Shown here: piece by piece, positions 1,792 through 57,245 of the stretch | How the letters are laid out: every line of letters begins with the position of its first letter | How positions within the stretch are numbered: the first letter of the stretch is position 1 | NCBI GenBank assembly: GCA_015501605.1 | Contig: JADNRZ010000002.1 | Span: 1 to 64,000 of the forward strand | Reading direction: 5' to 3' | From: Panaeolus papilionaceus | Lineage: Eukaryota > Basidiomycota > Agaricomycetes > Agaricales | Length of the DNA stretch: 64,000 nt | Notes under the pieces: generated by a model | The model's database searches: none | What the model was told of the DNA's origin: nothing | What the model saw: the letters and a program-made list of their open reading frames with translations, nothing else | Translations under genes and position numbers: made by a program

Positions 1792-2755
1792 TGCACTCAA
1801 ATGAATGAATGCTCGAAGAATCCATGATGGCGATCTGCCGTCGGGAATACCACGACTCTATTTTAAGGTGGAGACCTTATTCTTCAAAGCTATATCCAAG
1901 AATACACTCCCCTGTATTAACCTTCCCGCATGCCCCATGTTATGTGCTTTGTTAATTGTCTTGCTCTGCGGCTATTGCTCGTGACCATATTTTAACACAA
2001 AGCTTGCCCGTGAACGACGTGTGGTTCACCCGCAGTCAGTAAGAAGCCTCGAATGCCGAACTTCGATACACGCTCCGATGATGTAGGCATATGCCATACA
2101 CTGCGCATCCGGATCGCAGGACTTCCCCACCCACAGTGAGCTTCGAATTATTGGAAGATACAATCTAGTGAAGGAGCAAGGAAAGGGGTGAAATGTAGTA
2201 ACCCTATGTCATTATCGTGCTCGGTGTAAATGACATACTTACTCATCCTACCGGGAATCAAGACAGCAATGCATGATATGGTGGAATACTGTAGCCGTCT
2301 ACAGTCGGGAATAAGCGCTCCACAGGTTACCACGATGATCGCTCAAAAATCAGTGAACCAGGTGGTGCAGAAGCATAAAACGGATGGTTATCGGATCTGA
2401 TGCGCGATTACAGAAATACCGCTACTTTTTTGGGTACGAGTATGGGTGCTGATTTGCATGGTGGAGCGTTCTCAATATGTTCGGGTTCGCTGTGGAGTAG
2501 GTAAAAATAACGCAGCACGACAGCTGACTTTGTTTTTCTTATTTTGTGTCCGAATTTTGGGGAGTTGACGTACCTGACTCCAAATTCACTCAGAAGCAAT
2601 GTTGATTCAATTCAATATTCAAGTTCGCTACATTAAACCTTCGTGATCGCATCAAGTCAAGCGCTCGTCCTGACCAAGCCCGTTGGGCGTGCCGAATATG
2701 TAATTTTTTGGATGTAAGCCCTCAACTCGCAGAAACTGTAGACTGTTAGAAAACG

Positions 2756-2763
2756 TATAAATA
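2756..2763 (+). promoter_or_regulatory. TATA box of secreted-protein gene A
   Basis: TATAAATA lies about 160 bases upstream of the start codon and at the same relative position in all three units. A 5'-UTR intron (donor GTGAGC at about 2822, acceptor CTTTCAG ending 2910) separates it from the ATG. Confidence 0.65.
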
Positions 2764-2922
2764 CCAGTCCATCTAGAGGCACTCATTCAGCAGCTTAGCT
2801 TCTCTTCTCAGTAGCAATCAGGTGAGCATCGAGGCTCTTCAAGCGTCTTCCCCATCATACTGTTGTATCACCTCCAACTAATCCGTATTTTTTCTTCTTT
2901 GTTCTTTCAGAAATCAGTTATC

Positions 2923-3303
2923 ATGCAATTCAAACTTGCCACCTTCATCACCGCCGCTCTTGTTTCCGCCTCTCCGGCGATGGCAGCCACTGTTCAATGG
3001 TTCGCAGGTGCTGACTGTACCGGCGCACTCATTGGCACTAGCAACAACGCACAAAATGGTGCATGCATCTGGCTTACGAATGGCGGCTCTGTAAGGTCAA
3101 TCGGATACTCCGGTACCAGTTCTATCCAGTTCTTTATTTCTGGCGGCCAACACGATCGTTGCACCAATGGATCGCAATTGACCCGTTCTGGCTCCGGTTG
3201 TGCAACCGCTCCCTCTGGGTAAGCTACCTGGCTGCACAATGATTGATACGACGGACTGATGATTAATTGTAGTGTCAACTGGGAGAGCGTCTCCGTTCGC
3301 TAA
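2923..3303 (+). CDS. Small secreted Cys-containing protein, copy A (108 aa)
   Basis: Two coding exons, 2923-3218 and 3273-3303, joined by an intron with GTAAGC donor and TTGTAG acceptor. The first 21 residues form a signal peptide (MQFKLATF..., cleavage expected after SPAMAA). The mature part starts TVQWFAGADCTG and has four cysteines (ADC, GAC, DRC, SGC), a Gly/Ser-rich body and a C-terminal VNWESVSVR. It should be a small extracellular beta-rich protein held by two disulfides. I know proteins of this look among Agaricomycete small secreted proteins but cannot name a family with certainty. The start at 2923 is chosen because the earlier in-frame ATG at 2863 lies inside the 5'-UTR intron. Two near-identical copies lie downstream. 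Confidence 0.85.
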
Positions 3304-3490
3304 GTATTCAGCGCAGTAACCACAGATTCCTTGATACATAAATCACCAAGCGACCCAGCGTGTACTATGCACTTGTAAAGACTCAAAGGACTTGTAAATT
3401 GAATAAACCTGTTTTATACGAGCCGTTTACCTCTCAGAACTCGGAGTTTTTGGTATATCCCAGACACCTTTCGCCGTCTCTTTAATTTGA

Positions 3491-4149
3491 CTGATATATT
3501 ATGAATAACCCGTCTTTCGATGGGTAACCACTGTTGGTTCTCGTCTTTCTCGACTTCGGCCGTTCCGAGGCCTTTAGGCTCGGGTTCTTTTCCCCCGCGC
3601 CAGTGCATTTCGTCTGTTTGGACCCCCACGTGCCTCGTTTCTCCACTCGCGTGCATCAGACAATCGTTTCGGAATCGTTGATGCTCTCGTTCGTCCTCGA
3701 ACTGACATCGCATTACACCTCACATTAAAATTCACTGCTCTGCGCTTGTCTGTGTACCTTTCCCCCTTCCCCTACTACTCTCAATTCTGCTAACATGTCA
3801 ATAATCTTGCCTCAGCATAGGATCATCAGGAGGCGTAAAAGGCCTCGGATGTTGCCGCGCGCAGCGTCGGTCCTGTTAGCATGTCATATTTCTTGGTTCT
3901 TACGCTCGAGTCTCCGTAGCCGGAGTAGTCGAGTATGGGGAGAGGGAGAGGTCATCGGAAATGAACCCCTCCCAGTGTGAGAGCCGAGGGCGGTGGACGG
4001 ATGAGCCCCCACACCGACCACGGCTCCCTCTACCCCAACTACGGAGGTCGAGAGAATACTACATAATGTTTGAACTTGTGAATCATGAAGGTATGCCTGT
4101 AGATAACGAATCAAGTGAAGTAAATTAAGAGATTGACGACAAAGGGAAG
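3491..4149. other. Intergenic; holds part of a dispersed repeat
   Basis: No gene seen. The segment at about 4010-4060 (CACACCGACCACGGCTCC, then CTACGGAGGTCGAGAGAA) recurs in longer form at 7555-7740, so it is a fragment of a dispersed repeat. Otherwise featureless. Confidence 0.5.
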
Positions 4150-4318
4150 CGGTGGGTGGGTAAAGAAAAACGAGCCACGAGCCGAGATACAGCAGGCGGC
4201 GTGGAGAGTGCTAGGAAATAGAAAGAAATAGAGTACAGGAAGGAGAGGAAGCAAGAAGCGCGACGTAGGATGACCTCTTCACGTGACCAAGAAGGCGGAT
4301 CTGTGCGCGCACAGATCC
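4150..4318 (-). repeat. Dispersed palindrome-headed repeat, solo copy
   Basis: Read on the minus strand this starts with a perfect 22-bp palindrome (4297-4318, core ATCTGTGCGCGCACAGAT). It continues with CTTCTTGGTCACGTGA and a T/C-rich stretch containing TCTCGGCTCG, then a tract ending near CCCACCCACC. The same order occurs on the plus strand at 25553, 49582 and, more degenerate, 54270. At 25553 and 54270 it heads the composite repeat that contains the stem-loop arrays. No terminal repeats or target duplications were found for this solo copy. Confidence 0.6.
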
Positions 4319-4718: not shown

Positions 4719-6970
4719 TCAACATTCCCTTGTATGCACCTTTTGCACTATCTGCAGCACCCGGGAACGGTACCGCATGGTGAGTTTGAGCGTGTTCTGG
4801 AACAACAGGAGGGAAATACGAGGTTGGTTGAACAGCAGCTGACGGGATGGGGAACGCGATGCAGACCGAGAGGAAGGCTGGGACAATACAGGTAATGGTG
4901 GTTGAGATGAAGCTGACGACGATCTTGGTTGCTGGCCAGCAGACTGATGCTTAAAACCCGCCAACACCTCATGCTCACTCCTCTGCAACTGAGCATGCTG
5001 TTCTTCCACTGCATCCACCATGCGTCTCATATCCCTCTCAGCAGCGCTTCCATACCGATCCTCCTCCTTTTTCCCTTTGCTCATCGTCAGGAGTGAAAAT
5101 GATGCTGAGCGTTTCAGGGACTTCTCCTGTGGCTGAGGTTGATCCTGACACAAGACGTGAATTTTGGGGATAGCTGGAACACTGCGGACAGCGATAGGAA
5201 GGTTGAGGGTACTGGATGAAGCCGATGGGGGTGAAAATGGTGCAACGAGCGTTATAGATGAGCTGTGAGGCAAACTGGAAGATAAGGGCGATGATAAAAG
5301 GACACGAGCAGCGGGTTTGATGTAGCGCTGCGATGTTAAACTTGATTGTGAGGGTGATTCAAGAGGGATGAAAAGGGGGCGACCAGCATTGTAGATGAGC
5401 CGTGAGGCAAGCTAGAAGACGAGGGCGACGATAAAAGAGTACGAGCAGCGGGTTTCATGTACCTCTGTGACGTCAGACTAGACTGTGAAGGCGATTTCAG
5501 GGGAGAGAGGGAATAGCCCAGTGAGTCGATCTTCCTCCTCCTTCCCGCCATTGCCTTTGCCTGGTCGTCATCCTTCTCTGCTACCCTTGGATCCCCTCTT
5601 ATCCCATCACCAGAAGTACAATGCCCATCCAGTGAGTTCAACGCCCCCGTTATATTCGCCTCTCTAGTCGAGTTGGGCGTCAACGGCGAGGTCGGCAGTG
5701 GTGGCATGATAAGATCCGCGTTAAAACCTCGTATGGTTCAGGTCTTGACCCATGATAGATATGCGATACCGATTGCGATCTCTTCCGTGTCCCAAAATCC
5801 TTAGGTCACGCTCTCTGATCCCGAGCCAGCTGGGGAGTGCGCACGGGTGATGTCGGAGCTTACGAGACCGATGAAACCGACGGGGATCAGGAACGAGGTG
5901 GTACCCCTGCTTCACAAGAGGACAAGGACGCGTCTTCCGACGCAGATAACGAAGAAGAGGGTGATGGCGAGTGAGGAGACGTGGAAGGAAAAACGCAGAC
6001 AGTGACGGAGGTGGAGAGAGAAGAATAGTGGGTGTTGAGCCTGATTTGGCGATCGTCGTTGGGGTGTTTCCTTCTCTTGTATTCTCGTGAGATAGTGCAT
6101 CGGATACTCGTTGCTCAAGAGAATTACCATTAACAGCTTGAGTGTTGTGTGTGAGAGAACGACTGGATGTTGAAGTGGGAACGATAACAATGGGAGTAGG
6201 GACGTGTTTCATTTCAACTTGAAATCAGACATTGGCTTCATCAGCTGCTAGACCCGAGCTTGAGGTGATGGTGGCGGTTTGGATATCGTGATTTTCCTCA
6301 TCAGCGATTTCAGCTTAGAAAATCTTGAAGAACCAGGGGGCGTCGCACCCCAAGGAGCAATAATAGCACGTTCACTCGGTGACGAGAGCGAGTCAAGCCT
6401 GGGTGGTCAACACCTTGCACCCCCATCGTCCTCTCTAGCTTCTCCAACCTCTTTCTCTTCAACACTTCAGGAGGCGGCGTCATGCGAATACTAGGCGTTA
6501 ACAGGCTGGGCGGAAGACTGGACATGCTCAGGAGTGAGCCGCTTGCGAGACTACTCGTGATGGGAACTAGACACGGTGAGACGGAGAAATGACTACATGC
6601 AGGTGAGGGATGCGAAATTAACGGCCCAAGCTACAAGCTTGAACGGCGAGGCGGGGTGATAGCAGGTGGAATGGCACTTTTGGGCGGCTGGACAAACAAC
6701 TTTAACGAGACGCGTGAGGGTGATAGTGAGGGTGCAGGAGAAACTCTGGGCAAGGCACTCGTTGAAGAGTTAGACGAGCTAACTGTGGACCCAAAGCGAA
6801 ATCGGGTGGGTATCGTCGTGAAGAGCAAGCGACGGCCGAGAATGAGAAAAGGAATTGTGAGGAAGGGGATAAGATTGCTGTGGCTTGGCACTCGCTGGTT
6901 TTCGGAGAGAGCCGAACAACTTTTTGGCATGAGCCTTGATGCCCAGTTAAAACCGGCTCCGCAGAATTCT
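4719..6970 (-). pseudogene. Decayed Ser/Pro-rich gene
   Basis: Minus-strand blocks are Ser/Pro-rich, with a run of basic and acidic residues typical of a nuclear or regulatory protein. From upstream to downstream these are a Pro/Ser block at about 6630-6800 and a block with MSSLPPSLLTPSIRMTPPPE followed by KRKRLEKLERTMG (about 6420-6525). Next come a Ser/Thr-rich block at about 6050-6210, one at 5336-5707, and one at 4719-5273 containing ERDMRRMVDAVEEQHAQLQR, which looks helical. The blocks lie in different frames, some separated by stops with no obvious introns. A stretch of about 90 bases is tandemly duplicated (5258-5345 and 5390-5480). The protein is not recognised, and a highly intron-split live gene cannot be excluded. 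Confidence 0.35.
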
Positions 6971-7799
6971 GCATGATCTGGACCTCGCTGCACATGTCTG
7001 CTTCTGTCTGAGAAATCCGCAAAATATGCGAAATTCTGCATTTCAACGACGTTCGAAACTTGGGAACCAAAAGTCAAAATTATTTGAAACATCTCAACTT
7101 GGATAATGTCAAAGACGAGTCGTCGTTCCACACAGATAGTTACAGACATTTGACCTCGACTCACCCCCATACATACCCTCGTCGTTCTCTCATTCGGAAC
7201 CAGCCGCAAATTTCCAAGTCAGCTTGAGATGGGCTTCTGTTGGATCTCGACGCAATCTCGACGCCCTCAACCTACTCTTTCAGCTTCCACCACCACTTCC
7301 CCTTTCTTTTCCCCTTTACGTCCATCCCCTTTTTCTCCCCACTTTCTAACGCACTCCCTTCATTCTGATTATGCCTTGGCTGTATCCCATTCATTTACCT
7401 GATGACCTTTTCACGCCTCTTCAGCCTCACGACAATGTTTAGGGCCGTGCAACTTGACTGGTAAGTTTATGATATGCATACCCGACAGTTTGACCGTAAA
7501 TCTATCCAGATAGCTATAGGGTATCTTGTATACCCCCTGATCTTTGTTTAGCACCCACACCGACCACGGCTCCTGGAATAGGGGCAGTTGCCACCCCCAC
7601 GTGACCCCGTAGTAGAACCAGAAACGCTGTAGACTAGGTTAGAACAGATCCAACTTGACCTCTCCACACCGTGTTTGCGTGAGCCTGAGGCACCCAGGGG
7701 CTCTCCACTCCCTCTGCCCGACTACGGAACTCGAGAAAATATATACACGTACTATCTAATCTTATGTATAAAAGGGTATTGAGATGTCCACGGCTGGAT
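6971..7799. other. Intergenic with dispersed repeat at 7555-7740
   Basis: No gene seen. The 7555-7740 stretch begins CACACCGACCACGGCTCC and ends GACTACGGAACTCGAGAAAA. Both ends match the shorter copy at 4010-4060, so the two differ by about 130 bases of internal sequence. Confidence 0.5.
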
Positions 7800-7842
7800 A
7801 TGCTGAGAATTCGGCTCCATTCCAGGAGCAGGGTGTGAGGGT

Positions 7843-8526
7843 CTAATATATTGGGGAGGTGGTTAGGGGTATGGAGAATCTCGTTGAGGTTCTACTTTTT
7901 TTTGCTGCTACTCCTAATGCGAAGGGTCTCAGTGTGAGACGCTTCCCATGCCTCAAACACGTCGATCTGTCCATCGACGCACAGATGAATCGCAGACCGA
8001 GGAACTCCTGTTTCTTCAAATGCTGGTTTGGATGCCTATGTGATTTCATAACGTATGGAAGCACTCTCATCGATAAGAACTCCCAGCTTCCTAGTCTTGT
8101 GCTAAGCTCGCGTTTAAATGTCATCATTGGTTCGTACTATCCTCTCCAGAATTGTATGTGATTTATGATATCTGACTAGGCTTACGGATTGTAAGTGCTT
8201 ACTGATATACACTTGTGTCAGCGCTTTGACGGTGCTTGAGAGCGTTCTGACGACGGCAACGGCAACGGATTTACAGTCGTGATACGGTCCAATTGATTCC
8301 TCGTGCATGTACGGGGAGAAGCAGCTACACCCCTAAAAATAGACCACCAATCCGCGAGCGCTGGGAAGCAACTTTGATCCCCGCGTCGACCAAGTCAGTC
8401 ATACGCAAGCTTATAGGAATGAAAATTCGAAAACGAATCCTCTTTGTAAGTTCATTGTCTCCAGCGCTGGATTCATTCGGGATGCTCGGCGACAATCTTG
8501 ATGCCAATGATATAAATATAGTTTAA
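7843..8526 (+). pseudogene. F-box/LRR-like remnant in unit B
   Basis: A plus-strand frame near 7880-8030 encodes LSVRRFPCLKHVDLSIDA, which has the look of one leucine-rich repeat from a basidiomycete F-box protein. It is followed at 8293-8526 by the 77-codon frame shared by all three units. The two pieces are not joined by a convincing intron, and the C copy of the first piece is interrupted. I treat them as remnants of one F-box-like gene. The assignment rests on general pattern only. Confidence 0.35.
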
Positions 8527-9515
8527 TACACTTGGATGAGTGAACGCTCGAAGAATCTATGATGGTGACATGCCGTCGGGAATACCACGACTCCTTTTTA
8601 AGGTGGACACCTTATTCTTCAAAGCTATATCCAAGAATACACTCCCCTGTATTAACCCTCCTGCATGCCCCATGTTATGTGCTTTGTTAGTTGTCTTGCT
8701 CGGCGGATATTGCTCATGACAATATCTTAACACAAACCTTGCCCGTGAACGACGTCGGGTTCACACGCAGTCAGTAAGAAGTCTCGAACCCCGAACTTCG
8801 ATACATGCCCCGTTGATGTAGGTATATGACATACACTACGCATCCGAATTGCAGAACTTTCCCGCCCGCAGTGAGCTTCGAAATTTTGGAAGATACAATC
8901 TGCTGAAGGAGCAAGGAAAGGGGTGAAATGTAGTAACCCTATGTCATTATTGTGCCCGGTGTAGATAGCATACTTACTCATCCTGCCGGGAATCCAGGAA
9001 GCCAAAGAGTAATTGTAATGTGTAATATAGTGGACTACTATGCCCGCCTACAAACGGGAATGAGCACTCCACAATTTATCACGATGATCGCTCAAAAATC
9101 AGTGAACCAGATGGTACAGAAGCATAGAACGGGTGGTTATCGGATGTGATGCGCGATTAGGGAAAAACAGGTACTTTGTTCGGGCACGGCTATTGGTGCT
9201 TATTTGCACAGTGGAGGGTTCTCAATATGTTCAGGTTCGCTGCGGAGTGGTTTTTTGCAAGGTAAAAATAACGCAGCGCAACAGCTGACTTCGTTTTCCT
9301 TTTTTGTGTGCGAATTTTGGGGATTTAACGTGCTTAATTCCAAATTCACTCAGAAGCAATGATGATTCAATTCAATATTCAAGTTCGCTACATTAAACCT
9401 TCGTGATCGCATCAAGTCTAGCGCTCGTCCTGACCAAACCCGTTGGACGTGCCGATTATGTGATTTTTGGAGGTAAACCCCCAAGGTCGCAGAACCTGTA
9501 GACTGTTAGAAAACG

Positions 9516-9523
9516 TATAAATA
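9516..9523 (+). promoter_or_regulatory. TATA box of secreted-protein gene B
   Basis: TATAAATA is at the same position relative to the gene as in copies A and C. The surrounding block, including CTGTAGACTGTTAGAAAACG, is conserved in all three copies. Confidence 0.65.
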
Positions 9524-9677
9524 CCAGTCCATCTAGAGCTACTCTTTCAGCAACTTAGCTTCTCTTCTCAGTAGCAATCAGGTTAGCATCGAGGTTCTTC
9601 ATGCCTCTCCCCCGTCATACTGTTGTATCACCTCCAACTAATCTGTATTTTCTTCATTCTTTCAGACAACAGTTACC

Positions 9678-10058
9678 ATGCAATTCAAACTTGCCACCCT
9701 CATCGCCGCCGCTCTTGTTTCCGCCTCTCCGGCAATGGCAGCCACTGTTCAATGGTTCGCAGGTGCTGACTGTACCGGCGCGCTCGTTGCCACTAGCAAC
9801 AATGCACAAACTGTCTCATGTATCTGGCTTACGAATGGCGGTTCCGTCAGGTCAATCGGATACTCCGGCACCAGTTCTATCCAGTTCTTCGTTTCTGGCG
9901 GTCAGCACGATCGTTGCAGCAATGGGTCGCAATTGACCCGTTCTGGCTCTGGGTGTGCAACTGCCCCCTCTGGGTAAGCTATCTGGCTGCACATTGATTG
10001 ATACAACGGACTAATGATTGGTTGTAGTGTCAACTGGGAGAGCGTCTCCGTGCGCTAA
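9678..10058 (+). CDS. Small secreted Cys-containing protein, copy B (108 aa)
   Basis: Exons 9678-9973 and 10028-10058, with the same structure as copy A: signal peptide ending SPAMAA, four cysteines in the mature protein, and C-terminal VNWESVSVR. It differs from A at a few residues, for example the segment reads ATSNNAQTVSC where A has GTSNNAQNGAC. It encodes the same protein as copy C. The in-frame downstream exon and splice sites are intact, so it is probably a working gene. Function is unknown; it is likely secreted to the wall or medium. A 5'-UTR intron (acceptor CTTTCAG ending about 9665) precedes the start. Confidence 0.85.
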
Positions 10059-25490: not shown

Positions 25491-25552
25491 TTCAATTTTG
25501 GGCATTGGAAAAAAGCCGTGCGCGGCCGTGCATGACCGTTCAGTACTGAGAA

Positions 25553-25735
25553 GATCTGTGCTCGCACAGATCGCTCTTCTTGGTCACGTGAGCAAGCCGC
25601 AACACTCGCCATTCATTCCACTCCGTATCTGTATTATCTTTACTGCCTCGCTTTCTCGCCGGTTCAGCGTCTCTCGCTCGGCTCTCTATATCTTTATCCT
25701 TTTAATTTCTGGATACATCTCCTTCTAAGACCGAC
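25553..25735 (+). repeat. Palindrome-headed repeat (head of composite repeat, locus 1)
   Basis: Starts with the near-palindrome GATCTGTGCTCGCACAGATC, then CTTCTTGGTCACGTGAGC, then a T/C-rich stretch with GCTCGGCTC. Same order as 4150-4318 (inverse), 49582 and 54270. It is followed by roughly 800 bases of C/T-rich sequence leading to the stem-loop array. Confidence 0.65.
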
Positions 25736-26575
25736 ATTAATTGGGACACCACAACACTGGCGACACTGATACTCTGCCAGCTCATCACCTGCATCTGTGT
25801 CGACACCCATTGCAGCACACTAACTGAGCTGCAACATAGCCTGTACCTGACGCCTCACCAACCTGACAACTTCATGAACAAAGAATGCAAGAATTGACGG
25901 GCGACTCTTCGCCAGGAGGGTCTATGAGACCACCAGATCCTCATAACTCTCTACCCTGACCAGCTACGGGCTACAAAACTGGAGGACTACCGCTACTCCC
26001 TTTCCCTAAGCCAACCAGGAATACGAGATGGCTAAAATCAGATGCGTATCCCATCATTTCCTCATAACGCAACATATCTCCCCCCTCCACTCCTTGCAGG
26101 ACACTCCCTGAACACTTCTCCACCTACGTCAGTAGGGCGATTCATATTCTTCTCATACTCGCTTGGCCAAACTCAAGCAGTCACCCCAATCCCGATTACA
26201 CCAGACCTCAAGAATCGCAGGTAAGCAATACCATATGACAATCTCCCCTTCTCTACATCCCCCTCAACCTCTACCCATCGCTATCCAATATTCCTCCCTC
26301 GTCCCCAATCATCACACCCTGTCTTTATCACTATCCAATGATCCATTCCCCACATCTCGCCATCAGCTACTCTTCCTCGTATCCTCCCTCTTCTACCTCT
26401 CAAACCCTCCAACACAACCGGATCTCTCTTTGGATGCGAAACTGTCTGCGCCCAGCGCGTCAGCTAACATCAAAACCACCGGTCCACATGCCCACCAATA
26501 TGTGATTATCACCTCTGTTTGATGCTGGCGTGTCGATCGGGGGGGATTCGCCATGGCCTATCATGACTCTAACGG

Positions 26576-27165
26576 GTCCTTTGGGTTTACACACCCATAC
26601 CTATGGTTAACACCATTCCTATGACTCTAACGGGTCCCCTGTGGTTTACACACCCATTATGCGGTTAACACCACTTCTTCATGACTCTTAATGTGTCGTG
26701 GGGCGGGTTTACACACCCCTTGGAGTGGTCACCACCACTCCTGCGATTCTAACGTCTCGCGCTTGGGTTTACATACCCAATTACTCGGTGGTTATCACCA
26801 CCTTCTGCGACTTTAACATGTCGTCAGCCGGGTTTACACACCCATTGGGGTTTACACACCCCCGCGATTCTAACGTTTCGCAACTGGGTTTACACACCCT
26901 TTTAACTTGAGGTTTACACACCTCCGCAATGTCTAACGTCTCGCGTCTGGGTTTACACACCCATTTTTCACAGGTTTACACACCTGTCGGGGTTTACACA
27001 CCCCTGCGATTCTAATGTTTCGCCTTTGGTTTACACACCCTATTATCTCATGACTCTAACGGGTCCCTCGGGGTTTTACACACCTTGTGATGTCTGACAT
27101 CGTGCACCTGGGTTTACACACCCACTAGCGATCCTAACATCTCGCTGCATGGGTTTTTTATACCT
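26576..27165 (+). repeat. Array of covarying stem-loops, locus 1
   Basis: More than 20 imperfect palindromes of 14-20 bases share the loop TTTACACA while the arms change in concert. Examples are TGGGTTTACACACCCA (26582), TTGGGTTTACATACCCAA (26763-26780), GAGGTTTACACACCTC (26909-26924) and ACAGGTTTACACACCTGT (26970-26987). Others have shorter loops (GGAGTGGT-CACC-ACCACTCC, 26722-26741). Between them lies a second hairpin type around CTAAC or TTAAC: GCGATTCTAACGTCTCGC (26743-26760) and CGACTTTAACATGTCG (26808-26823), again with matched arm changes. Spacing is irregular. No protein frame is conserved, so a structure-forming role in RNA or single-stranded DNA is more likely than coding. A second array is at 55.3-56.3 kb. 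Confidence 0.85.
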
Positions 27166-27227
27166 GCTTGTTGGTCCACAGACAAGCTATGTGGCATATA
27201 GGCTATTAGGTACGCTTCTCTCACCCG

Positions 27228-27425
27228 CTGTTTGGGGCGAGCCAATGTTCGTCATCGGCTGGGCGGCCTTGCTCGCTTTGGGGGCGCATCCTCATCCGAC
27301 CATTGGCTCTTGACCTGGGAAGTGGGGCAGTGGTCTTCGGGCCATTGCCCTCTTTCCACCCCCAAGCTGTAGCCTCTAGGCTACTACCTCCTCTGGATGA
27401 CGAGCGAACGGAAAGACACAAGACG
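27228..27425 (+). repeat. GC-rich tail of composite repeat, locus 1
   Basis: GGGGCGAGCC, TCATCGGCTGGGCGGC, CTCGCTTTGGGGGCGCATCC, CGGGCCATTGCCCTCTTTCC and GATGACGAGCGA occur here and in the same order at 57045-57245, both directly downstream of a stem-loop array. It is non-coding as far as can be seen. Confidence 0.75.
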
Positions 27426-27929: not shown

Positions 27930-28140
27930 CGTGCAGTTAGCTCACTATGATCGTGCACTTCATTCGAAGGCCTTGCCAGGTGTTCGAGTGGATGTGCATG
28001 ACTGTGCCAAAGTTAAACACTACCGTGCAGAGCCGTGTAGAGCCGTGCATTGACCGTGCATAGCCGTGCGTGAACCGTGCAGTAGCCTTGCCAAGGGTGC
28101 GACAGCCGTGCATGAGCCGTGCACCGACAGAGCTCCAACA
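27930..28140 (+). repeat. Cluster of CCGTGCA motifs
   Basis: AGCCGTGCA, ACCGTGCA and close variants occur about ten times between 27930 and 28130. They appear again at 28590-28665 and beside the left terminus (25513-25535), on both strands. They include the terminal repeat core and are best read as transposase-binding-type subterminal repeats of the 3.2-kb element. Confidence 0.6.
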
Positions 28141-28924
28141 CATCACATTCTTGGTTTTCACCCATGTGTGTCGCAATTAGTATATCCTCTCTTGGTTAAC
28201 ATACCATTGTGCAGGAGGTACACAGGTCCGACATATCTCATCCAAACCCCTGGCAGGAGGTAGCATGGATGATTGATAGTACACTTTACATTTGTGGGAT
28301 TTACATCTGGTAGGATAATTTTACAAGCGGTATATATAGTCTTTGGAACAGTGGTTTCTGTCGTGATTCATATAACAGGATCACCCTTGTGTTGTGTGGG
28401 CATTACATTGTTAGTATTCGGACAGCTCTGGCCCGGGTCATGTCAAGGAATCATGTTTCATTATTCATGCCTCTGGTTTACAGACTTTGTACATGAATTG
28501 ATAACTCTAGACTGAACCACCACCAACAATACAACAATGCTGTACCCTGTATAATACCTAAATACCTCAGGAACCAATAAATATGCTATAACCGTGCAGC
28601 CGTGCATGGCCGTGCATGGCCGTGAATTTTACCATTTTGCACGGTAGAGACTGCACGGCTTTTTTCTTTTGCCCTTCAATTTTCCGTCAGCACTTGCATA
28701 AAATATGTATAATGTCACGGAGAGTATAGGTCGCGAAGGTGGATGAGCCCGTGAAGGCCGGTTTCAATTTGGTCTGTTGCTTATGACTCACAAGGACACG
28801 GTCAAATGACGAGGAAGAGAATGCAATTACGAGAAGTAGTGTAATACAAAGCAAGTAATCCTCAATTCCAAGGGTTGATAAATGCCAATATGATATGCTT
28901 GTTGGAACTTGGTAGACTGCCAGT

Positions 28925-49359: not shown

Positions 49360-49581
49360 GCAGCTCAACGGGAGATGTTGACGTAGACCACATAATGTAT
49401 ACGATTAACCACCCTCTCGTAAACCTAAGCTACTAGTATGATGTACAATTGCCTCAACGCATTAGTTACTCGAGCATCTTCCGTCGGATTGTCATTTGAG
49501 TTAATCTTCATGTCATGGCCTCAACTACTGAATCTCCTCGAACGTGAGGATTGCTGTATCGAGTGTATTTTTTGTGTGAAT

Positions 49582-53635: not shown

Positions 53636-54269
53636 AATCAGAACCCAGTTGAATCCCGCTGTTCAGTATGCACCGAAATGGAGTCAGACGCACTTCGAAT
53701 TCTGCATCAATCAAGTTCTGGAAGATGACGACGTGCTACGCAGTGTTTGTGTCAGTGAGGGATGTGGTCGGGTGAGAGCCGAAATACAGCTGAGAATAAA
53801 AGTTAACTGCGACCCTTGAATTGAATCTCCACCCACCGTCAGGCCCGTAACGGCCATGCTACCCGCATACTGCGACAGTAAAGCTTCACAATTCACTCAA
53901 AAGGGTCAAGGGGTCGAACTCGGTGTTTCCGGCTGAAGGTAAGAAGGTCCATAATCTCGCCGAAACATCGTTCGAAACTCAAAAAAATACAAGACCGCAC
54001 GAGCCTTGAAGCAAGTTCTGGAAGTTCTATAGCATTTTTTCCCGTAGGCAATGTTTCAACTTCAAAGTTCGGAAGTTCGTTCCCTTCTTTGATGTCGTCA
54101 AATAGATCATGCCGACAACTGCGCGGGTCAACTCTCCTCTGCAAACCCAATGCACCCAGTTCTTGTCTCCCTCTCACCAACGCTCGTTACTCTATGTCCA
54201 GCGGCGTCTGCAATGGAAATACAAAGGCCCAGCGTACAGGCCTCATACGTCCCTCTGTGCAATATTGGG
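53636..54269. other. Intergenic, no gene seen
   Basis: Contains weak similarity to 20880-20990 (GGGGTCGAA, CGGTGTTTCCGG) and nothing else recognised. Confidence 0.4.
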
Positions 54270-54450
54270 AGGATATGTGCGCGCATTATATCCATCTTCT
54301 TGGTCACGTGAGCGAGCCAGCACCCCGAACAAATTCGACTACACGTATCCTCTTCACTATTGTGTACATCGCCTCGCTCGTGGTCTGAGCGACATGTGTC
54401 GCTCGGCTCACTACTTTACTTTCTTATTCTCCTTACTAAAACCACGACGA
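54270..54450 (+). repeat. Palindrome-headed repeat (head of composite repeat, locus 2)
   Basis: Degenerate palindrome (ATATGTGCGCGCATTATAT), then CATCTTCTTGGTCACGTGAG, then GCTCGGCTCACTACTTTAC. It is followed by about 800 bases of C/T-rich, gene-free sequence before the stem-loop array, as in locus 1. Confidence 0.55.
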
Positions 54451-55259
54451 AATATCTACACCCTTATTGCACAACAAAAAGGAACCCCGATCATCCAGTG
54501 CCAGCTCATCATTCATCTTGCACCGCAAAAACCACCACTGGTACATTCACTAATGCAAGCCCATCCCAGAACACGCAACCTACACATACTGTATATACTC
54601 AAATCCAGATTTAAAATTTGGCAACAAGTTATACAGAAATCGGAATGGAGACCGAACCTCACACTAGATGAGTGACCATACCCTGCTATCCACTAATCAC
54701 CATATTTCTACCTGCCTAGTCTCCTAGAGTCCCTTTTTTACACCATGGATTCACTTCTTGAATCGACATAGCCCACTCTCAGACCGTTCTCAGATTATCA
54801 ATATCATATTCACACTCAAACCATCAGGAAACCAATATCCAAAATGGTAGCATGTCACTACCGCGTGTGTCATGATTCACCTTCACTAAGACTCCCTTTC
54901 TTTCCTCCCCGTAAAACTTATGCGCTAACAAATGCACCTAGCGACACGATACAGAACGAACAGTCAGCTCAACCAACGAGCATAAGAATGCATAACAATC
55001 CCGAAGTAAGTTGTATGGTTTTCTTGTTATTTCGCACTTGCACTGTGGTCCTTTTACAGTGTTACCACCTTGTGTCCCCCACCCTCACCGCACTCTATGC
55101 TAGTGATTTTCGTCCCATGCACGCTACCAACGCCAGTTTCGACGTATGGATGTCAGCCGACTGGGATGCTCCTCACCCGGCTCTGGGGTTGGGACTCGCC
55201 TTGCGATGTTAAACGTCCCGCAGCCACCTATGCGGCCTGGCTGTATATCGCGTCCTTTG
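54451..55259. other. C/T-rich part of composite repeat, locus 2
   Basis: No gene seen. Occupies the same relative position as 25736-26575 in locus 1. Direct similarity by eye is weak (shared TGCCAGCTCATCA). Confidence 0.4.
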
Positions 55260-56300
55260 TGCGGTGCTTATACACCTAACACATTGCCTATACACCCACG
55301 CTCATAGCACCCGCTACGCGGCATTTAATGTCCAGTTGTCGCCCATAACCTCTGCGTTTACGGTGCCCTCTGCGCGATTACCTGTGCATCCCACCTCCTG
55401 CTTATGGTGCCCTCTGCGCATTACTTGCGTACGCCACCTAGGCCCACTTCTACGGGGTTAGCATACCCATTACATCGGTTTACACACCGAATTGGGCCCA
55501 CGAGCCCCCGTAGAACTTTGCCGTTGTGTCCTCTGCATGATAACTTGTGCATGCCGCATCTTGGTACGGTGTCCTCTGCGCAGTACCTCGCGTATGCCGC
55601 CTCTCGGTCGAGTGACCGCTACACGATAACTCGTGTATGCCACTTCACTGATTTACATCCGGCTTACATGCCCGTTACGTCGGTTTACACACCGCACTGG
55701 GTTTACACACCCTTTTTCATAACGGTTTACACACCGTCTTGGGCCTACATGCCCTCTACATACCGGTTTACACACCGAGTTGGGGTTTACACCCCCCCCT
55801 TTATCTCGGTTCACACACCGACTTGGGTTTACACACCGTGTTGGGTTTACACACCCATTCATACATCGGTTTACACACCGACATGGGTTTACATACCCTT
55901 TACAACGGTTTATGCGCCGTCTGGGTTTACATACCCTTTTGCCTTGGTTTACACACCAACTTGCATCGGTTTACATACTGATTGGGGTCTACATTACCCT
56001 TTTCTAACGGTTTACGCACCGTCGGGGTCTACATTACCCCTTTATAACGGTTTTAACACCGTCTGGGTCTACATTACCCTTTCGTGTTGGTTTACTCGCC
56101 AACTTACATCAGTTTACACACTGATTTGGGTCTACATTACCCTTTTTACAACGGTTCGCGCACCGTTTGGGTTTACGCACCCAATTTTTCACCGGTTTAC
56201 GCACCGATCTGGGTCTACGTACCCACTTTATAATGGTTTACGCGCTCTTGGGTTTACACCCCCCTTTCCATCGGTTTTATACATTGACTCTTGGGTCTAT
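55260..56300 (+). repeat. Array of covarying stem-loops, locus 2
   Basis: Longer relative of the 26.6-27.2 kb array. Hairpins with loop TTTACACA and matched arms include TCGGTTTACACACCGA (55475-55490), ACGGTTTACACACCGT (55722-55737), TTGGTTTACACACCAA (55944-55959), ATCAGTTTACACACTGAT (56108-56125) and AACGGTTCGCGCACCGTT (56150-56167). They alternate with a second series, GGGTTTACACACCC drifting to GGGTCTACATTACCC. The left part has hairpins around TAAC such as ACACGATAACTCGTGT (55621-55636). Period is about 28-36 bases per hairpin pair. A 322-codon frame runs across the array only because the repeat lacks stops, and it shifts register between units. Confidence 0.85.
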
Positions 56301-57044
56301 ACACCCATTTGCAACAGCTCCTGCAATGTCACAGAGTCTATTAGCCTGCATGCCAAAATTTTCGGCCTTTAGGCACCGTCTTAATGGTTGGTGCATCGCT
56401 CTAGGCCTAGGGACTCAGTCCCACCTGTCATACCTGCCCTCCGTTTTTTCATGCCTTTATACAACCCCATCCATGCTGAACTTTGGAACGGTGATCGGCA
56501 TATATGGACACCCATCGCTGAAGGTTTGGGCGCTAAGGTCCACTTATACAATATTATAGATTATCAAATAATGTTCTCGTATTTATTTATTTTTACCCAT
56601 TTCGACTTGCACTCCCCTTTATGACCCTTCCCGACTTGCTGCATGTATCATCCTTGCCAGTTCATACTCACTCCATCTCTGTGGTTCATCCATTAAGATA
56701 AAAACCTCGCTCACTGGCATCCACACTCACCCCATTGATGCCCATGCATCAACTACCATCTGCCTTCCCCAGCACGTCTACACCTGTTCGTTCCATACCT
56801 CTCAGTCTGAACTTGACCCAGCCCCTAATCCGGGACACTATTATAAATTATCCGGCTTCCGTTCACACTCATTGCCCGCTAAAACTCACCACAACATATG
56901 AGAGTTCCTTGAGCCTGTTCTTCATTATCTGGCAGAGTTGGACAATCCCCGCTGAGGAACCGTTATCTTTCCCCACCGCGTCACCATTTCCACGCACTTC
57001 GTTTCAGCATCCTACCATTTATCCATAGATAGGTGAGCTTCTCT
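56301..57044. other. Gene-free part of composite repeat, locus 2
   Basis: Between the array and the GC-rich tail. No gene. Locus 1 has only about 60 bases here, so this may be an insertion in locus 2 or a deletion in locus 1. Confidence 0.4.
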
Positions 57045-57245
57045 CCACCGCCGTTGGGGGCGAGCCGACGACCGTCATCGGCTGGGCGGCTGCGCTCGCT
57101 TTGGGGGCGCATCCTCCTCCGTCCATCGGCTCTCGACCTGGGAAGTGGGATAGTGGTCTTCGGGCCATTGCCCTCTTTCCACCCCCGCTTAATATCTCCT
57201 AGCCTACTATCACCTGATGACGAGCGACCGAAAGACGCAAGACGA
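57045..57245 (+). repeat. GC-rich tail of composite repeat, locus 2
   Basis: GGGGGCGAGCC, TCATCGGCTGGGCGGC, CTCGCTTTGGGGGCGCATCC, CGGGCCATTGCCCTCTTTCC and GATGACGAGCGA in the same order as 27228-27425. The last shared bases are AAGACGCAAGACG (ACACAAGACG in locus 1). Confidence 0.75.

Follow-up and report, generated by a model that had tools for sequence, protein, structure and literature searches.

Covarying hairpin arrays in non-autonomous Ngaro-type retrotransposons of Panaeolus papilionaceus and the position of matching arrays in a predicted gag intron of some coding relatives

Introduction

Retroviral packaging signals are hairpins that lie 3′ of the major splice donor and are confined to genomic RNA that has not been spliced. 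Hairpins that are short, conserved in part and compensated in their stems are also found in the double-hairpin elements of Allomyces mitochondria and in the REP/BIME sequences of bacteria. To our knowledge, the means by which tyrosine-recombinase retrotransposons select their own RNA, and by which a retrotransposon can retain an intron, are little understood. The Ngaro elements of fungi and animals combine Gag, RT/RNase H and a tyrosine recombinase with split direct repeats in the order A-pol-B-A-B, according to the consulted sections of three papers (PMC3783388, PMC4157794, PMC8547959). Those sections do not describe a gag intron with a covarying array of hairpins, or gene-less copies that keep one: PMC3783388 and PMC4157794 use neither "hairpin" nor "intron" in their main text, and PMC8547959 does not use "hairpin". 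A search of the open-licence literature on Ngaro repeats, introns, hairpins, packaging and retained introns returned no such array in titles or the first lines of abstracts; the element class is known, and the array feature appears to be undescribed.

Here, we analyzed two hairpin arrays in a 64,000-nt stretch of Panaeolus papilionaceus DNA (the window; contig JADNRZ010000002.1). Unlike the hairpins of Allomyces and the REP/BIME sequences, which are mitochondrial or bacterial and form small mobile or dispersed units in their own right, these are tandem units within a larger retrotransposon. They share with retroviral packaging signals a place after a putative donor and a Gag with a presumed zinc knuckle (CX2CX4HX4C), but here dozens of short tandem hairpins lie in a predicted intron that interrupts gag, and any packaging function would be hypothetical. 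A coding relative is like Ngaro in its Gag, RT/RNase H, tyrosine recombinase and split direct repeats.

Results

The arrays are modules of dispersed elements

The arrays and the elements that carry them are listed here by window position.

25547..27423, plus strand: elem1, a non-autonomous element, almost certainly of Ngaro type, in the A1-B1 ("long") form; 1877 bp, from copies with unique flanks and exact ends
25547..25710, plus strand: A repeat (head, 164 nt) of elem1, common to short elements
About 25553-25572: terminal hairpin GATCTGTGC/GCACAGATC in the elem1 A repeat, which also contains TTGGTCACGTGAGC
26221..26226, plus strand: splice-donor-like CAG|GTAAGC in elem1, 675 nt from the element start
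26561..27165, plus strand: hairpin array 1, inside elem1, with a repeat of ~62 nt; its units are GG-TTTACACA-CC, GG-TTAACA-CC and hairpins with a CTAAC loop
27207..27423, plus strand: structured tail of elem1; the B repeat is its last 143 nt (27281-27423)
54266..57242, plus strand: elem2, another long, non-autonomous element, from a related family, with the same head and tail types
55006..55011, plus strand: splice-donor-like GTAAGT in elem2, 741 nt from the element start
55400..56310, plus strand: hairpin array 2, inside elem2; units with CGG/CCG stems alternate with GGG/CCC stems, and the loops are TTTACACA or TCTACATTA
57030..57242, plus strand: structured tail of elem2, including the B repeat

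When at most two mismatches are allowed, GGTTTACACACC has 39 matches in the window against 4.35 expected, a number reached in none of 100 shuffles, and exact GGGTTTACACACCC occurs 99 times in the genome (50.85 Mb, 71 contigs), compared with 0 for the reversed control. The sequence-only reading had counted dozens of palindromes with a shared loop, which is too many for array 1 alone (14 loops of the TTTACACA type) and fits array 2 (30-35 loop matches, varying with the loop list used) or both arrays. Array 1 has 11 good matches in the genome, ten near-complete and one split, and every one lies within a copy of elem1. Satellite DNA, which would form long arrays apart from a mobile element, was rejected on this count (11 of 11 loci in elem1 copies); arrays 1 and 2 are modules of dispersed elements. 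A 347-aa open frame runs over array 2, but the spacing of its units is not a multiple of three and the frame has no Pfam match, and a protein-coding array was also rejected. In one copy of elem1 (L018, 5436-7658), the hairpin array contains an insert of ~2.2 kb; another copy (L011, contig C46) is interrupted by sequence with a copia-type open frame at 6815-9901 (RVT_2, rve and gag domains).

The ends of elem1 are TGAGAAGATC and CAAGA. None of 30 insertions had a flush target-site duplication of at least 4 bp, and an offset of 1-3 nt gave four matches (4, 4, 5 and 6 bp). Insertions preferred T at -3 (19/30) and A at -2 (18/30), and one approximate empty site (71% identity) was consistent with clean insertion. 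No open frame of at least 150 aa overlaps elem1; three such frames overlap elem2, and the longest (55329-56372) had no Pfam match when scanned. Both elements are therefore non-autonomous, having no RT or recombinase genes of their own. When elem1, elem2 and a further element (L040) were compared with each other by BLAST, matches were essentially limited to the head, the array or the tail.

Heads of two more related elements are found in the window at 49575 (plus strand) and 4323 (minus strand), the latter from a divergent family of short elements; read by eye, the tail hairpin of this family has a different sequence and a similar-looking shape. Short tandem repeats of CCGTGCA lie close to elem1 (28023-28123 and 28592-28624), and the word is also found just 5′ of the elem1 start.

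Other identities suggested by the ends were tried and dropped. A SINE would carry a target-site duplication and an A-rich tail; the tails end in CAAGA or CAAAA. The tail words resembling an A box, which had suggested a SINE or other pol III element, belong to a conserved stem, and hammerhead-like words near the 3′ end had no Rfam match in the window at gathering score or in five loci by E-value. The scan of the five loci returned a tRNA in the flank of L042 and a weak tRNA-like match inside L042 (E 3.3, below gathering). The flanking tRNA gene (2917-3001, 47.3 bits) lies ~360 nt outside the head of that element copy.

A coding relative has the Ngaro architecture

Heads and tails were aligned among families, and a pair of heads separated by 5.7 kb on the same contig led us to a coding element (L060) whose head and tail types, read by eye, are those of the window elements. 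Its ORFs encode Gag in two pieces with a CX2CX4HX4C motif, which we take to be a zinc knuckle, followed by RT/RNase H and a tyrosine recombinase. Its main features are as follows.

2668-4272: RT/RNase H ORF, with RVT_1 (E 0.017) and RVT_3 (E 0.0044) matches, both below the Pfam cut-off
170-338 and 5885-6053: A1 and A2 repeats, 169 nt, 100% identical
5757-5886 and 6146-6275: B1 and B2 repeats, 130 nt, 100% identical

DVDSAFR and WVDD motifs were read by eye in the RT/RNase H ORF. The recombinase matched Phage_integrase (E 1.2e-4, 22.4 bits) below the cut-off of 27.1 and had 630 homologues, some named as tyrosine recombinase domain-containing; among those with names, the top four come from Panaeolus (72-80% identity), and the R, HxFR, RW and Y residues are invariant in 16 aligned sequences. 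The order is A1-ORFs-B1-A2-B2, with the split direct repeats extending downstream of the recombinase gene, and no methyltransferase domain, which would indicate DIRS, was found among the Pfam matches of the five frames scanned. A search for a partner with RVT_1 gave 150 scored matches, and scans of viral contigs returned no relatives.

Since this architecture is that of Ngaro and the ends are common to the window elements, the latter are almost certainly non-autonomous Ngaro-type tyrosine-recombinase retrotransposons. The sequence-only reading knew of no named fungal element with this structure; the array is not a stand-alone element but an internal module of these retrotransposons, and in some of their coding relatives an array occupies a predicted intron of gag.

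Long and short copies are parts of split-repeat elements

The 164-bp head and 143-bp tail are also present in short elements of 528 bp. Thirteen of these were compared, 11 of which differ from the majority by 0-3 substitutions; one more (L030) has 2 substitutions and a 7-nt insertion, and L033 is divergent. A listed head was found within 12 kb for 46 of the 51 tails listed. Long and short forms are fused head to tail in five loci (L010, L013, L016, L034 and L037), and in L010 the A repeat is present twice, as A1 and A2, with 100% identity. Given the A1-B1-A2-B2 structure, these joined pairs are complete split-repeat elements, and the separate long and short copies are, judged by their repeats, the A1-B1 and A2-B2 parts of such elements. 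The same structure supersedes template jumping, which we had considered for the exact joints; the two forms may have become separated by recombination or circle resolution. Within L034, the A repeat of the long part is 99.4% identical to that of the short part, and between L034 and L037 the A repeats differ by ~9-10% and the B repeats by <1%.

An array lies in a predicted gag intron of three coding elements

Introns were predicted from sequence, with splice sites chosen by eye. In L060, the unspliced gag frame reaches a stop after 211 aa, and the array (1023-1309, TRF) is flanked by a predicted donor (889) and a predicted acceptor (before 1617); in-frame removal of this 728-nt intron gives a colinear Gag of 509 aa. 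The donor is ~720 nt from the element start, similar to the donor-like site of elem1 (675 nt). Split repeats were established in L060, and two further coding elements were read as the 5′ parts of copies. The first (L061, recombinase 79% identical) has its array in a predicted gag intron of 451 nt, positioned as in L060, with a colinear Gag of 511 aa. In the second (L062, recombinase 54% identical, with one TGA within the match), an array of GGC/GCC units lies downstream of a GTGAGT donor; the acceptor first picked by eye was out of frame, and two other acceptors are in frame. Two more distant elements (recombinases 35% or 33% identical) have no such array: in L063, gag occupies two frames and a donor-like site is present, and L064 has an uninterrupted gag. 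In L063 (contig C3), a different Ngaro-like element, repeated GCATCA words occupy the place of the hairpin array at ~1590-1930, in a likely gag intron.

An array therefore lies between a predicted donor and acceptor in three of the five coding elements read (L060, L061 and L062), and in these coding relatives it likely sits in an intron that splits gag, as predicted from the reading frames. As for the non-autonomous long elements, a donor-like GTRAGY was found 515-918 nt into the sequence read in 9/10, a raw count from elements that include several close relatives rather than ten independent families, and in which the start of L023 is not defined by a head. In L022, no donor-like site was found near the expected place.

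Two types of array were found: TTTACACA loops on variable stems in elem1, elem2, L019, L021, L022 and L023, and near-constant GGC/GCC stems with variable loops in L040, L042 and the coding copies. The two types correspond in where they lie within the elements, which does not imply common descent of the units.

Stems covary at the third and fourth pairs

Because hairpins must not be picked by their stems, loops were selected by sequence only, blind to the arms, in six elements (elem1, elem2, L019, L021, L022 and L023), four of which (elem2, L019, L021 and L022) belong to a single group of relatives. Every one of the 129 units was retained, poor ones included, and right arms were shuffled among the units within each element as the null. 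Counting from the loop, pairs 1 and 2 are a nearly invariant G-C, with Watson-Crick pairing in 94/129 units each against 86.9 and 86.8 after shuffling. A strong excess was found at pair 3 (91/129 against 49.5) and pair 4 (59/129 against 40.2), and none at pairs 5 and 6 (35/129 against 39.2 and 19/129 against 21.6), giving a stem of ~4 bp. The claim that left and right arms change together thus stands for pairs 3 and 4, far above shuffled, and not for the near-fixed inner pairs or the outer ones.

Complete 4-bp stems were found in 37/129 units against 11.1 (P 2e-4), and in 21/105 against 6.1 when identical inner arms were counted once; the units are related by duplication, and such shuffles overstate their independence. 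By element, the counts were 8/15 against 2.7 in elem1 (array 1), 13/30 against 3.1 in elem2, 3/19 against 0.5 in L019 and 8/24 against 2.3 in L021, and were not significant taken alone in L022 (2/23 against 1.1) and L023 (3/18 against 1.3). A 6x6 scan of arm positions placed the nested pair 3-3 on top (z 8.2); nested pair 4-4 reached z 4.0, with the off-register cell 4-2 higher (z 4.6) and 2-1 also raised (z 3.8). The variants include TGGG/CCCA, GGGG/CCCC, GAGG/CCTC, CAGG/CCTG, TCGG/CCGA, ACGG/CCGT, TTGG/CCAA, TCAG/CTGA and GTGG/CCAC, a variety that suggests several independent paired changes. The second hairpin series, around CTAAC, had also been said to covary, for which the support is weak (stem lengths total 36 against 30.6, n=11, P 0.025).

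In an alignment of nine young array 1 copies (excluding L011 and L018), hairpin units were gained or lost and single substitutions were seen, with no double compensatory change. The GGC/GCC-type arrays (L060, L061, L062, L040 and L042) have stems that hardly vary and thus provide no evidence of covariation.

RNA is favored as the folding strand

Arrays 1 and 2 lie 3′ of a donor-like site on the strand that is sense in the coding relatives. At pairs 1-2, G-T outnumbers A-C by 25 to 6 (P 0.0009), and the count is flat in a stricter subset (10 G-U, 9 A-C). The tail forms a multi-branched structure in which six pairs are G-U or U-G in 9/9 sequences, which would be A-C on the opposite strand, and the ORFs of L060 are on the strand that these pairs favor. 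On the plus strand, array 1 (z -7.0), array 2 (z -4.6) and the L060 array (z -5.6) fold better than shuffled sequences; the minus strand exceeds its shuffles by more in array 1 (z -7.9) and array 2 (z -6.4), and a short element reaches z -6.5 on the plus and -3.7 on the minus strand. The arrays of L040 (z 0.15), L061 (-1.35) and L062 (-0.98) fold no better than shuffled. Global folding energy is uninformative for the choice of strand; taken together, RNA is favored as the folding strand, but not proven.

Discussion

The array is retained in gene-less copies and is predicted to be intronic in coding ones, and the simplest joint reading of both is a recognition element that marks genomic RNA. 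We give a probability of about 0.5 to the array serving, in unspliced genomic RNA alone, as a multivalent recognition element similar to a packaging signal. Hairpins in the unspliced sense RNA would together provide multivalent binding, most likely to the zinc-knuckle Gag of the element itself. The spliced form would yield Gag and lack the array, and unspliced RNA, the only form to contain an intronic array, would be chosen for particle assembly and reverse transcription. Features retained by non-autonomous copies are expected to act in cis, and the ends, donor-like site and array of gene-less copies would be their cis signals for mobilisation in trans, with selection on short stems presenting fixed loops producing the covariation. 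The array in coding relatives could mark unspliced genomic RNA; we infer both that the intron is spliced and that the array has a packaging role. Packaging or recognition by Gag specifically is, in our judgment, slightly less likely than not. That a mushroom lineage of tyrosine-recombinase retrotransposons evolved its own packaging signal, a hairpin array in the gag intron such that only unspliced RNA is reverse transcribed, is a tentative proposal with the odds somewhat against it. Short A-B elements are numerous though they have no array, which counts against the recognition element; we assume that they arise after reverse transcription or through recombination.

A covarying array that lies in a predicted intron and is kept by gene-less copies is a possible cis signal, making both the choice of RNA and the retention of an intron testable. 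If the reading is true, it would explain why an element mobilised through RNA retains an intron, and gene-less parasites would compete via the same array. Satellite-looking arrays can be conserved RNA modules of mobile elements.

The main rival is splicing control, in which the intronic hairpins would occlude splicing signals or bind to them and so determine what share of the RNA is spliced. It is compatible with the position inside the predicted gag intron and with the CTAAC-type loops of array 1, as some loops carry branch-point-like CTAAC or TTAAC, but the main loop, TTTACACA, is not a branch-point word and non-autonomous copies keep arrays without any gag to regulate, and we consider it unlikely. 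Next, and a little less likely still, is an array without function that grows by unit duplication and has its complementarity restored by hairpin-templated copying (quasipalindrome correction). Tandem arrays readily expand, and the gain and loss of units among young copies with no compensatory pair speaks for such copying, whereas it would not account for pairing that ends sharply at ~4 bp, for loops that are conserved although arms change, or for arrays similarly placed in elements with barely alignable bodies. The sequence-only reading had left selection on a folded strand and templated copying side by side; because of the sharp end of pairing, the similar placement and the arrays kept by gene-less copies, selection is the better of the two, and in our judgment it probably acts on the folded strand.

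Folding could also matter in single-stranded DNA, with the hairpins acting in the cDNA or in a circular intermediate, for example as recombinase sites. A circular intermediate has been proposed for DIRS1-like tyrosine-recombinase elements (PMC3266345), and in arrays 1 and 2 the folding of either strand is better than shuffled, by a larger margin on the minus strand; the short A-B elements sit at unique sites without any array, and the G-T bias and the G-U pairs of the tail favor the sense RNA strand, making this role improbable. The ends invite one more comparison, with a Helitron or other rolling-circle non-autonomous DNA transposon bearing terminal hairpins, given the absence of a flush target-site duplication, the terminal hairpin, the copies joined head to tail and 18 Helitron_like_N matches in the genome. 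Within 10 kb of those 18 matches we found none of the 100 of 122 heads and 51 tails listed (nearest, 10.7 kb), and therefore no Rep/helicase partner with the same ends among them, and the same ends belong to L060, a tyrosine-recombinase retrotransposon, which contradicts a Helitron identity; we rejected it as extremely improbable. Several of the Helitron ORFs are long and uninterrupted, up to 2607 aa, and may reflect recent Helitron activity in this genome.
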